From NCBI GenBank assembly GCA_028685185.1, contig JAQUEK010000002.1:1-64000 (forward strand): a DNA stretch of 64,000 bases, written 5' to 3'. Each line of letters begins with the position of its first letter. The first letter of the stretch is position 1. Positions 33,908-45,590 of this stretch are shown here, one piece after another. A model generated the notes under the pieces. That model was not told the origin of the DNA. It saw only the letters and a list, made by a program, of their open reading frames with translations, and searched no databases. The position numbers were made by a program, and so were the translations under genes. The DNA comes from Candidatus Altimarinota bacterium (lineage in GTDB: Bacteria > Patescibacteriota > Gracilibacteria > BD1-5 > UBA2023).

Positions 33908-36130
33908 TTATTGTTCTTCTTCTGAGTCTTTGTCTTTAGGAAGATTTTTTGCATTCTTACATTCCGGATAATTGGAACATGCAAGGAAAGGTCATCTTCT
34001 GGAATTCTTTACGTGCATTATTCAAGTTCAACACTTATCACATGTCGCTCATCAGAATTTTTCTTCAAGTCATTCAAGCTTTTCATTAGGTATCTTTCAG
34101 ATCCACTTTACCTCAGGATATAACGAGCTCGCTAGAAAAGGTCAGAACCTTCATGTCTTTATGACTATCGTTCATCATGCTTCACAAGGTTTTCATTCAT
34201 ATTTTTCCTTAAGCGAATTCATATATTCCTGCTTTGACTCATCGACTATGTTCTCCAGAAATTTACATTCTGGATATCTGTTGCAGCCAATGAACTTTCA
34301 TGCTTTTGAAAATTTATATACAAGTTCTCATTCATTACACAAAGGACAATTCCTTCATACTTTTTCCACAACTTTCAATGCATTTTCATCTGAATTCAAC
34401 AGATCTTTTTTGAAATCTTCATAGAATGTTTCAAGCATCTTTATCCAATCCTGTTTTCATACTGATATCTCATCAAGTTCCTCTTCTATTTTTGCAGTAA
34501 ACTTATAATCCATCATTTTTTTGAAATATTCTTCCAAGAAATCATTTACTACAAAAGCTATTTCAGTTGGAGCAAGTTTTTTTTCGATCTTCTCAACATA
34601 TCATCTGTCGATTATAGTTGTGATTGTTGGAGCATATGTCGATGGTCTTCAGATTCATTCGCTTTCAAGCTTTTTTACAAGCATCGCTTCAGTATATCTT
34701 GAAGGTGGTTTTGAGAAAACCTGATTGGCATAGAGATTCTTAGAATTTGCAATCTCTCAAATCTTCAATTCAGGCAAAGTACTTGCTGGTGTTCATTCAT
34801 CTCAATCTTCGATTTCTTCATCGCTTCATTCCATATAAAGCTTCATGAAACCAGGGAATTTTATAACCTCTCATTTTGTTATCCATTCTTGATTTTCAGC
34901 TATTGTAGGGGAAAATACATAAGTTGTAGTTTCTATCAATGCTTCCTTCATCTGTGATGCGACTGTCCTTTCCCATATAAGCTTATAAAGCCTAAGATCA
35001 CTTCATTCGAGTCATACGTTTTCCGGAGTCTTATCGATATATGCAGGTCTTATGGCCTCATGTGCTTCTTGTGCATTCGCTTGCTTGGTCTTGAATTTCC
35101 TTCATGCAGGCAGGGAATAGTCTTTTCAATAATTCTCTTCTATGAATTTCTTGCTTGTCTGTATTGCAAGATCGGATAGGTTTACACTATCGGTTCTCAT
35201 ATAAGTGATATGTCAGTTTTGGTATAGGTTTTGAGCAATCGTCATTGTCTGGCTAACTCAATATCAAAGCTTTCTTGAAGCTTCCTGCTGAAGCGTTGAA
35301 GTCGTGAATGGTGCTCAAGGAAGCCTTGTTGAATCCTTCTTATCAGATGCAACCACTTTGAAGTTTGCGATAAGAGGTATTTCATAATATATATTTCATT
35401 TCTTATCCTTTTTTTCTTGGAAATTATCAGTATCGATTCATAAGGTAGCTAATACCTTTATTATATCCTCTTGATTTTTAAGTTTTTTTGATTTGTCCTC
35501 GATCTTTGCAAGTTCAGAAGTGAATTCCATTCATTTAGCTGATAACATGACTTTTAGCTTCCAGCTTTCCTCAGGCTTGAAATTCTTTATTTCCCTTTCT
35601 CTTTCTACAATAAGCTTAACTGCGACTGATTGTACTCTTCATGCACTCAATCATTGCCTTATCTTCTTCCAAAGAACCGGGCTTGTCTTGAATCAGACTA
35701 TCCTATCGAGCAATCTTCTTGATTGCTGGGCATTTACAAGATCGATGTCAATACGACGAGGATTCTTTATGGCTTCATCTATAGCTGATTTTGTGATTTC
35801 GTGGAAAACGATCCTATTTACTGTTGCTGAATCAATTCATAGTGCTTCGCACAGATGCCATCAGATTGCTTCTCATTCGCGGTCCTCATCTGTAGCTATC
35901 CAAACGGTTTCAGCTTCTTTTGTCAATTTCTTCAATTCATTTACAACCTTTTTCTTATCTTCGCTTATTATATATGTAGGTTTGAAATTATTCTCTATAT
36001 CTATTCAAAGGTCTTTTTTTGCCAGATCCCTTATATGTCAGAATGATGCTTTGACCGTAAAATCTTTTCATAAGAATTTTTCAATCGTTTTTCATTTTGC
36101 TGGAGACTCGACTATTACTAGGTTTTTCAT
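33908..36130 (-). CDS. topA: DNA topoisomerase I (type IA)
   Basis: 740 residues. Toprim motif VIVESPAKGKTIEKFLG at 4-20 and IATDEDREGEAIGWHL, then the catalytic tyrosine in HITYMRTDSVNLSD near 315 and LESEGIGRPSTYAPTI. Two C-terminal zinc fingers are complete (CPLCNEG...CNRYPEC; CDKCGTG...CSNYPEC) with a degenerate finger between. Relaxes negative supercoils. A TTGACA element (36185-36190 on the minus strand) lies upstream. Confidence 0.96.
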
Positions 36131-36208
36131 TAATTGTTTTTTATTTAGATATTTTGTCAAACTTTATAAATTAATTTATTGTTGTCAAAACTTTTTTATT
36201 TCAGGAAT

Positions 36209-36236
36209 GTAAAAGCCCGCATTTAAGCGGGCTCTT
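36209..36236 (-). terminator. GC-rich intrinsic terminator of cassette gene A
   Basis: On the minus strand GAGCCCGCTTAAATGCGGGC is followed by TTTTAC. The perfect GCCCGC/GCGGGC stem is of a type not seen elsewhere in the window, where stems are AT-rich. Confidence 0.88.
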
Positions 36237-36260
36237 ATCTAAGACAGGTGAGTGTAGATG

Positions 36261-36506
36261 TTAATCGAATATAAGTTCGTACTGCGCGTTTACATCAGTG
36301 ATGAATTGCAGGACTTTGTCCTTTATATCATCGCTGATATGATTCACTGTTGCGACAAGCTCCTTTATGCCCGGTAAGGCATTTAAGAGCGAGCAGATCA
36401 TGGTTTGAGTTACCAGGGCATAACCTCCGATTTGTTTGCAGTTGCTGCAAATTTCTTCGAGCTTAAGCTCTGCAGTGGCAATTTCTTGCGTTAATTCTTT
36501 CTTCAT
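36261..36506 (-). CDS. standard-code small helical protein A
   Basis: 81 residues from ATG 36506 (MKKELTQEIATAELKLEE...). The sequence is helical with a CSNC pair (about 20-23), an IGGY turn and PGIKELVATVNHISDD. All three glycines use GGA, GGT or GGC; there is no in-frame TGA, unlike every neighbour. The start is chosen because GGGGG lies six bases before it as a Shine-Dalgarno. Own promoter upstream, terminator downstream, and base composition visibly richer in G+C. No family recognised. Confidence 0.72.
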   Translation of the reverse strand: MKKELTQEIATAELKLEEICSNCKQIGGYALVTQTMICSLLNALPGIKELVATVNHISDDIKDKVLQFITDVNAQYELIFD

Positions 36507-36568
36507 GGTGAACCCCCGAGTAGTTTTTTTCATTTGCAATCAATAAGAACATCTCCTTACTGCCTTAC

Positions 36569-36633
36569 TCCTCCTTTTACAAATTTTTTGAATCTGTGGG
36601 TTCTTTATATTCAACGAATCGGTTTTGTCAAAA
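36569..36633 (-). promoter_or_regulatory. promoter module of gene A (copy 1 of a duplicated leader)
   Basis: Read on the minus strand: TTGACA, 16-base spacer, TATAAA, then a leader ending in AAAAGGAGGA. The 65-bp module is repeated at 37038-37102 with about four differences. AAAGGAGG is a full anti-Shine-Dalgarno match but lies far from the start codon, so it may serve another purpose. Confidence 0.8.
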
Positions 36634-36642
36634 CTTTTTAGC

Positions 36643-36671
36643 AAAACAAAAGCCTGCATCACTGCAGGCTT
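36643..36671 (-). terminator. GC-rich intrinsic terminator of cassette gene B
   Basis: AAGCCTGCA/TGCAGGCTT stem with loop GTGA, followed on the minus strand by TTTGTTTTGC. Placed 42 bases after the stop of gene B and just upstream of the promoter of gene A. Confidence 0.88.
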
Positions 36672-36712
36672 GCTTTGTTCGGTATATTCAGTTGTCTGTT
36701 CTTGGTAGCCTT

Positions 36713-36979
36713 TTAAGCGAAGGCCATTGAGATGCTGTAGTTACGAAGCCTTTCCACAAGGCTTTCGTAGGCTGATACGAGATGTTCCCCGCATTTTTCA
36801 AGGCAGGAGTTCATCATGACGACCAATATGTTGTGGGAAACTCTGTCGAGCTCTTCCACGATTTCACATATTTCGTTGTTCTCATGTCCGAGAACAACAG
36901 TGGTTGCATAATTCCTGTACTTGTTTTCAGCGGTTTGTAACCTTCTGAGCAGCTTTCTTAAAGAAACTTTTTTCAGCAT
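36713..36979 (-). CDS. standard-code small helical protein B
   Basis: 88 residues from ATG 36979, which has GGAGG seven bases upstream. Basic N-terminus MLKKVSLRKLLRRLQTAENK, then a helical part with LGHENNEICEIVEELDRVSH and two cysteines (SCLEKCGEH). Its two glycines are GGA and GGG; no TGA occurs in frame. It shares promoter and layout, but no clear sequence identity, with gene A. No family recognised; helix-rich regulator or phage-type protein are possible. Confidence 0.72.
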   Translation of the reverse strand: MLKKVSLRKLLRRLQTAENKYRNYATTVVLGHENNEICEIVEELDRVSHNILVVMMNSCLEKCGEHLVSAYESLVERLRNYSISMAFA

Positions 36980-37037
36980 GTGTACCTCCGGTTTTTTTTG
37001 GTTCAAGATAACAAAACTACAATTTTCTACCGAAAAT

Positions 37038-37102
37038 CCTCCTTTTACAAATTTTTTGAATCTGTGTTTTCTTTATATTCAATGAATCGGTTTTGTCAAA
37101 AA
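37038..37102 (-). promoter_or_regulatory. promoter module of gene B (copy 2)
   Basis: Same layout as copy 1: TTGACA, 16 bases, TATAAA, then ACAGATTCAAAAAATTTGTA and AAAGGAGGA. The inner ACAGATTCAAAAAATTTGTA is imperfectly palindromic and could be an operator. Confidence 0.8.
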
Positions 37103-37124
37103 AATATTTAATTTTAATTTAAGG

Positions 37125-37183: not shown

Positions 37184-39436
37184 ATGGGAAATCAGATAAT
37201 AGAAGAGAAGCAGAAAGTGGTCGATTATGCCTCGATTGATGACTCGGTAAATCATATTGTTGAGATGGTCCATGAATATATGATTAAGATATCGAAGGAA
37301 AAGATCAAGGAAGAGATTTTCAAGGCGTATAATTTCGCAAAAGAGGCACATGAATGACAGTTCAGGCAATCTTGAGACCCATATGTTCTACATCCTGTCG
37401 AAGCAACAAAAGAGCTCCTTGTACTTCATCCTGATCTTGTAACCATACAAGCTTGCTTGCTGCATGATGTTCCAGAAGATACAGATAAGACAGTAGAGGA
37501 TATCGAAGTTGTTTTCTGATGAGAAGTTGCACATATCACAATGTGAATGGAAAAGCTCTCAAAGTTGAAATACAGATGAGAAGAGAGATCGGTCTGAAGC
37601 TTAAGGAAAATGTTTATTGCCATGAGTGAAGACATAAGGGTTATTTTCGTTAAGCTCGCTGATAGGATACATAATATGAAAACACTTGAATTTCATCCTA
37701 ATCCTGAAAAACGAAGAAGAATCGCTGAAGAAACCCTTAATATATATGCGCCCATTGCAGATAGGCTTTGAATATTTGATTTCAAGGAGATATTGGAAAA
37801 TCTTTGTTTTAAGCATCTTTATCCAGAAGAATATAAGAAGATTCAGAATGAGCTTCTTGAGCTGAAGGAAGAGCAGAATATTTTCGTTACAAAAGTAAAG
37901 GATGTCATAAATGAAACGATTCCAGACAGGATTCCGCTTATTGACGTCTCTTATAGGATAAAATCTCCATACAGCATATACAAGAAAATGCAGAGGAAAT
38001 GATATGAGCGAGTGAAAGATCTGCATGATCTTTTTGCGCTTAGGATTATTACCGATTCGATTTCCCATTGCTACGAGATCCTTTGAGAGATACACAATAG
38101 ATGGTCGCCGATTCCGAAAAGGTTTAAGGATTATATTGCGCTTCCTAAGGAGAACTGATACCAAAGCTTGCATACGACCGTAATGTGAATATTGAGGGAA
38201 TTAAGATCTCAGCCTACTGAGATTCAGATAAGGACTAAAGATATGCATATCCAAGCTGAAATTTGAGTTGCTGCACATTTTGAATATTCAGAAAGCTGAA
38301 AATCAAAGATAGCGAAGGATATATATTGGGTTTCTGAAATCAAGAATATCGTTGAATTGAATCAGGAAAAATGAGATGCAGAATTTATGAGTAGTATGAA
38401 AATCGGACTTTTCGATGACAGGATTTTTGTTTTCACACCGAAATGAGATGTGATTAATCTGCCGAAATGATCGACACCTGTAGATTTCGCATATTCTATC
38501 CATTCGGATCTCTGAAACCATATAGCTATTGCAAAGGTCAATTGAAAGGTCGTTCATCTTGATTATGAGCTTAACAACTGAGATAGGATTGATATAGTCA
38601 TAGATAAGAACAGGCAACCACTCATCACTTGGCTTTCCTTTGTGAAGACCAGCAGAGCAAAAGAAGTTATCAAAAGCTATATAAATAAGACAAATAGGGA
38701 AGAGCTTATAGAAAAAGGGAAATTCATATTGAATTCATTTCTTCAGAAGAATTACTGAATATTTTTAGATAAGGATCTTTCCATATTGAAGAACATAGAT
38801 TGAAAGATACTTGATACGAAGGAGAAGGAAGATGTCATCGTGCAGATATGAAACCTTTCAAGAAGACCCTCAAGCGTCATAAGATGAATTCTTGAAAATA
38901 CGAATCATCTAAGCATATCAAAGCTTACAATCAAGAAAAAAACTGAAAAGACACTCAAGAAATGACTGGAGGAATGAGAAGTGACTGATGATATCATAAT
39001 CTGATGAGAAAAGCATATTCCATACAAATTTGCAGCATGCTGCAGTCCGAAGAAATGAGATAAGATAGTCGGCTATATAAACAGGAATTGAGTCAGTATA
39101 CATAAGATAAACTGTTCATCCCTTAAAAAAGGTAACTTTGAAAGATTCATCGAAGCACGTTTTGAATGAATGGAACCTTCAAAATGAGTAACGATAAAAA
39201 TAGAATTGGTTTTCGATAATATTATGTGAGTATTAAGGAAACTCACTGATATACTATATACCATGTGAATAAATATTGAGTCTCTACATACAGAAAAACT
39301 TCCTTGAAATCTCGTAAAGAACACTATGGTATTGGAATCAAAAAATGAAGATTATTATATGTTTGAGCGTTTGAATGAAAGATTAAAGCTTTCAATGAAA
39401 GAATTCAAGGAGTCAAAATTATTGGAATTGAAATAG
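37184..39436 (+). CDS. rel: bifunctional (p)ppGpp synthetase/hydrolase, RelA/SpoT family
   Basis: 750 residues, full length. HD hydrolase domain with [10 protein letters not shown] and the catalytic HDVPEDT (about 95), synthetase domain with [20 protein letters not shown] (about 320), TGS domain ([20 protein letters not shown], about 415), a zinc-finger/ACT C-terminus ([18 protein letters not shown]). Both catalytic domains look intact, so it can both make and break the alarmone. Ends in TAG. A short hairpin follows before the convergent AbiEi-like gene. Confidence 0.96.
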
Positions 39437-45513: not shown

Positions 45514-45590
45514 TGGAGCGGGCGATGAGACTCGAACTCACAACAGTCTGCTTGGAAGGCAGAGGCTCTAGCCAATTGAGCTACACCCGC
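45514..45590 (-). tRNA. tRNA-Gly (anticodon TCC), CCA encoded
   Basis: Acceptor GCGGGTG/CGCCCGC with wobble, D arm GCTC/GAGC, anticodon stem TCTGC/GCAGA with loop CTTCCAA (TCC), T arm GTGAG-TTCGAGT-CTCAT, discriminator T, CCA. This reads GGA/GGG; it is not the tRNA-Gly(UCA) that must decode UGA, which is not in the window. Confidence 0.94.

Follow-up and report, generated by a model that had tools for sequence, protein, structure and literature searches.

Probable horizontal import of two standard-code transcription units into a Gracilibacteria genome that reads TGA as glycine

Two small genes, here called A and B, that lie between topA and relA/spoT in a bacterium decoding TGA as glycine (code 25) were probably gained by horizontal transfer of entire transcription units from bacteria that use the standard code and Shine-Dalgarno (SD) sequences; we put the probability of this reading at about 0.68. 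The window, by which we mean the whole stretch analyzed, comprises 64,000 nt (JAQUEK010000002.1, positions 1 to 64,000, forward strand, assembly GCA_028685185.1) and comes from Candidatus Altimarinota bacterium (Patescibacteriota; Gracilibacteria; BD1-5; UBA2023). We refer to the resident genome as G000 and to a second genome, from another genus of the same family, as G011.

Standard-code compatibility and foreign codon usage

Gene A (36261..36506, minus strand) encodes 81 amino acids with three glycines (GGA, GGT, and GGC), and gene B (36713..36979, minus strand) encodes 88 amino acids with two (GGA and GGG); both end in TAA, contain no in-frame TGA, and can be read in the standard code. The open reading frames, their coordinates, and the five GGN glycines reported in the earlier note were thus all confirmed, and its statement that the cassette obeys the standard code held, with foreign codon usage in addition. 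Both neighbors are native. The open reading frame of topA, downstream of the pair (33908..36130, minus strand), has 45 TGA and 2 GGN glycines, and the divergent relA/spoT (37184..39436, plus strand) has 35 TGA and 5 GGN glycines.

We evaluated how often a lack of TGA would arise by chance. TGA accounts for 977 of the 1163 glycines (84%) in the long genes of the window and for 77% of glycines over four G000 contigs, so that the lack of TGA among the five glycines of A and B has a P value of ~1e-4 at the first rate and 6e-4 at the second. TGA-free stretches of 84 codons occurred in native genes (35/1486), and a single TGA-free short gene is therefore unremarkable; at 169 codons, none of 1096 native stretches was TGA free. 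The comparison of codon usage and GC content that had been proposed earlier showed A and B to be foreign-like in their codons even with glycine excluded (score equalled in 1 of 3890 native 169-codon windows) and higher in GC (0.42 for A and 0.43 for B) than the flanking coding sequence (~0.36).

Native, highly expressed genes can also prefer GGN codons: EF-Tu has 24 GGN and 17 TGA glycines, L1 has 13 and 10, and L17 and S20 have no TGA. However, such genes use GGT and GGA, very rarely GGC or GGG, and have a low GC3; ribosomal/EF-Tu-type codon usage was rejected for A and B by 52 bits; and a high-expression codon bias does not account for the C-terminal TGAs described below. That A and B are themselves genes of this kind is thus very improbable, and this explanation is largely refuted. 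Elsewhere in G000, a 1137-aa protein with a signal-like N-terminus, perhaps of a surface layer (C7:131189-134602), combines 77 GGN glycines with 9 scattered TGA glycines. Within the family, TGA usage is strongly variable: the TopA N-termini of four relatives (G018, G020, G010, and G024; loci L065-L070) are 88-92% identical and have no TGA there, compared with 7 per 100 codons in G000.

The two proteins could not be aligned with each other and have no detectable relationship. Neither has a significant match in Pfam, PHROGs, NCBIfam, or PADLOC; PDB sequence and fold searches with B gave no significant match, and Rfam gave sub-threshold matches only. A is predicted, with low confidence, to be all-helical, and B is predicted to form a long helical hairpin (single-sequence model, pLDDT 82). 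Both may be small protein-binding proteins, a suggestion made with low confidence.

Expression signals of A and B

Each gene has its own set of signals. The leaders of A (36569..36633, minus strand) and B (37037..37101, minus strand) both carry a TTGACA-N16-TATAAA promoter and, after it, AAAGGAGG, and from the -35 box to AAAGGAGG they are 95% identical over 65 nt. B has the SD sequence GGAGG (36985..36989, minus strand) 5 nt upstream of its ATG, and A has a weak SD-like GGGGG (36513..36517, minus strand); of the strong SD sequences once ascribed to both genes, only that of B stands. An intrinsic terminator follows A (36210..36237, minus strand; a GC-rich stem of 11 bp, with the folded stretch at -18.8 kcal/mol), and another follows B (36650..36671, minus strand; AAGCCTGCA...TGCAGGCTT). 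The GC-rich hairpins are therefore real, but they are less unusual than had been supposed, since 108 of 682 native genes (~16%) have a comparable terminator. Nor are the promoters atypical of the neighborhood, given that the adjoining topA has a similar TTGACA-N14-TATAAA.

The combined TTGACA-TATAA-GGAGG architecture occurs in G000 upstream of A and B only, and in G011 at the topA site and in three more places, two of which are clear TGA-free units. We do not claim a shared regulatory element, because the leader sequence showed no significant similarity across genera (nhmmer). With separate promoters and terminators, and as members of the genome-wide class described below, A and B give no support to the two-gene system that had been suspected. 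They likewise show no sign of being a toxin-antitoxin or defense pair, sharing no operon and lacking the relevant Pfam, NCBIfam, or PADLOC matches.

A genome-wide class of SD-led, standard-code units

We scanned nearly the whole resident genome (1.17 Mb) for TGA-poor genes. Further such genes in G000 encode two methyl-accepting chemotaxis proteins (MCPs), a CheW, a transglycosylase with a hydrophobic N-terminus, a ThiF-family protein, a GIY-YIG protein, secreted proteins, and orphans; a hemerythrin-like protein near CheW is also TGA poor. The members are scattered across contigs among TGA-rich genes, and the CheW and MCP members match PF01584 and PF00015 well above the cut-off. An SD match of at least 5 nt was present in 13 of 653 native genes (2%) versus 12 of the 16 TGA-poor genes, A and B included (Fisher test, 6e-16). 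In most of the SD-bearing TGA-poor genes the SD is AAAGGAGA; some others lack an SD, the GIY-YIG gene being one of them. In G000 the 16S rRNA ends in ...UAUCUCCUUUU, with which AAAGGAGA can therefore still pair. A scan of table-11 gene lists, which exclude internal TGA by construction, found 22 SD-led units outside native genes in G000, a few of the shortest of which may be spurious; B is among them, and A is missing because its SD is too weak. GGC makes up 20% of class glycines compared with 8% of native GGN codons.

Several observations accompany these counts. The 3' end of the 16S rRNA (C1:56 onward, plus strand, L133) reads GGATGGACTATCTCCTTTTATC; its anti-SD region departs from the common GGATCACCTCCTTT and fits the AAAGGAGA of the foreign-type genes, and native genes hardly use an SD. 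The hemerythrin-like gene near CheW (C4:142767-144626, L220) is in standard code. Two SD-led, TGA-free genes (C1:71237-72028 and C3:55056-55325) encode Cys/Gly-rich paralogues of 263 and 89 aa with 45% identity over 85 aa, and the 263-aa protein has no Pfam match. No CheA with a CheW domain was found in G000 (rated 100% complete) or G011 (93%), despite the presence of CheW.

Some class members contain a lone TGA, and it lies near the C-terminal end: 2 codons from it in an MCP, 1 in the ThiF-family protein, 32 in SLT, and 2 in the CheW of G011 (product of the positions, 9e-8). These lone terminal TGAs look like standard-code stop codons that are read through, which argues strongly for a standard-code origin and against native codon bias. 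We found one class-I release-factor-like gene in G000, as well as a tRNA with anticodon UCA; having one such release-factor gene, the cell probably cannot read UGA as a stop. In at least one candidate, C3:87887, TGAs occur well within the code-25 reading, part of which may be spurious. Besides the UCA tRNA, ARAGORN found only one tRNA-Gly (UCC; window 45514-45590 and G000 C6:31908-31986), and GGC codons, as in gene A, would then need wobble reading.

The foreign composition of A and B might also come from an assembly chimera or contaminating DNA. We consider this scarcely credible, because the pattern recurs about 20 times over the contigs and because an A homologue occupies the equivalent site upstream of topA in the independently assembled G011; moreover, the cassette is internal to a 284-kb contig and not at its edge.

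Phages offer another route. Cargo of code-11-compatible phages, or of other mobile elements passing between recoded and standard-code cells, would suit three points: phages of this type have been predicted for Gracilibacteria (PMC10746230); both genes are small orphans equipped with signals of their own; and recombination could occur at the 65-nt repeat in their leaders. However, the earlier suggestion of a phage or mobile pair found no credible match in phage, plasmid, or viral-contig searches, of which the phage collection was searched with B, and PHROG scores were at chance level; the one IMG/VR match to A (L064) was rejected as a chance 22-residue match inside a 765-aa phage protein. In addition, the class members with an assigned identity are chemotaxis, cell-wall, and secreted proteins whose genes lie singly at scattered sites, and prophages in these bacteria have been reported to be TGA rich (PMC10746230). 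We therefore regard such cargo as improbable.

The second genus and the age of the units

Next, we looked into G011, of which about 951 kb was covered. Its native genes show 68% TGA, and 5 of 222 (2%) have an SD. About half of its TGA-poor open reading frames, in a list that includes spurious frames, are SD bearing, and the 951 kb holds 27 SD-led standard-code units. Standard-code homologues of G000 class genes are present for CheW (55%), the 96-aa secreted protein (58%), SLT (32%), and A (26%). As in G000, topA is immediately preceded on its own strand by the A homologue, which is 81 aa long in the standard code, the same length as A; its pairwise score is 10 s.d. above shuffles (blastp E value = 6e-7, single comparison). 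Homologues with TGA-coded glycines had been named as evidence that would tell against import, but the two TGAs of this gene, at first candidates for internal glycines, are at codons 82 and 92 of a 92-codon code-25 reading and fall beyond the 81-aa product. In G000 and G011 alike, an MCP gene is followed by a small secreted-protein gene in a standard-code cluster (G000 C5:11444-13482; G011 C4:161702-162210, where the MCP is truncated at the contig end).

The distribution of A and B among relatives is patchy, which together with their foreign codon usage is what is expected of horizontally acquired genes. In the genus whose TopA is nearest to that of G000, the topA-upstream site is occupied instead by a divergent lipoprotein gene. 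A was found in 2 of the 147 genomes searched, with one homologue judged real by synteny and pairwise score, and the 96-aa class member also in 2 of 147. B had no convincing relative among the 147 relatives or in a 380-genome phylum sample and no detectable relationship to G011 proteins. The CheW tree, with the outgroups used, was unresolved and does not decide between import and long residence.

Under horizontal import, A and B would be two single-gene units within a scattered cargo of about 22 in a code-25 genome, each having brought along a promoter, a start signal, and a terminator. No recoding would be needed, because GGN is still read as glycine and TAA is still recognized as a stop. In units that came with a donor TGA stop, translation would continue as far as the following TAA or TAG, and imports would be readable at once if they ended in TAA or TAG or had a backup stop nearby. 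The simplest reading is an ongoing uptake of individual genes, signals included, from bacteria of the standard code. DNA uptake is plausible for the group, for which type IV pili and DNA uptake have been discussed (PMC11452946), and 126 horizontally acquired genes have been reported for Vampirococcus lugosii (PMC8080830). Presumably A and B are expressed. Their products could conceivably, although this is doubtful, be small helical protein-binding proteins belonging to a partner-interaction cargo with the MCPs, CheW, the transglycosylase, and the small secreted proteins.

The putative donors left no direct trace in our searches. We found no standard-code relative of A or B, the distant lineages having been searched with short seeds or limited collections, and the claim of import therefore rests on composition and signals. 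The homology search of both proteins suggested earlier, extended to plasmids and phages, yielded neither a donor nor a mobile homologue: A and B had none in plasmids or viral contigs, and B had none in phages or bacterial genome contigs. For CheW, the donor search in genome contigs returned one relative (36%). The third-position GC of the class tracks that of the resident genomes (0.39 in G000, native 0.325; 0.26 in G011, native 0.166), which suggests long residence and not fresh arrival, and the same topA-upstream site at only 26% identity is odd for two independent recent insertions. Thus, of the recent acquisition from a standard-code donor proposed in the earlier note, the foreign part is favored by the codons and by the SD of B, while the recent part is weakened by the GC3.

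If the class genes are old residents, something keeps them TGA free. Selection might preserve their standard code if they function, in the form of DNA or mRNA, inside a partner cell (host or prey) that uses the standard code and depends on SD sequences, in addition to or in place of the producer. The readable set would comprise the chemotaxis adaptor and receptors, the transglycosylase, and secreted and small helical proteins, A and B included. Several observations fit: SD and standard code are both retained while GC3 follows the resident genome; four G000 class genes with native-like GC3 have 67 glycines (14-20 each in some) and no TGA; CheW, the 96-aa secreted protein, SLT, and A are homologous and in standard code in both genera; MCP and CheW occur without a CheW-domain CheA; and UGA stops are functional only in a standard-code cell. 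However, export of nucleic acids is neither known nor seen, the same pattern would arise if genes were imported from donors with matching GC, the absence of internal TGA is built into the table-11 gene lists, and at least one candidate (C3:87887) contains TGAs deep in its code-25 reading, which may in part be spurious. Selection of this kind is accordingly unlikely. We give a similarly small chance to its fuller form, in which the parasite keeps ~20-27 standard-code genes, with SD sequences and UGA stops, for expression in partner cells, as cargo for another cell's translation.

Relation to known systems and meaning

Code 25 has been described in general terms (PMC6851277), and the possibility that TGA recoding impedes gene exchange has been discussed (PMC8080830). 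The genes acquired by the code-25 CPR bacterium Vampirococcus lugosii (PMC8080830) are likewise foreign genes in the genome of a TGA=Gly parasite; they were recognized by gene trees, whereas the units described here stand out by their compatibility with the standard code, the SD contrast, and unread UGA stops. Like A and B, the genes of code-11-compatible phages of Gracilibacteria/Absconditabacteria (PMC10746230) lack in-frame TGA and are readable in both codes; A and B, in contrast, are single chromosomal transcription units, with no phage genes noted beside them and no phage homologues. CheW and methyl-accepting chemotaxis proteins are families of fellow class members, while A and B match no family; no CheA-type partner was detected here by its CheW domain. 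In the library searched, which is limited to open-license papers, we found no account of a standard-code layer of this kind, SD led and with unread UGA stops; this absence is weak evidence of novelty.

Three partly independent marks, namely, standard-code compatibility, SD sequences, and unread UGA stops, single out a genome-wide layer of genes in this bacterium. They allow foreign or partner-directed genes to be listed without alignment in uncultured CPR bacteria, and it becomes testable whether the genes of this class are merely imports or are kept readable by a partner.
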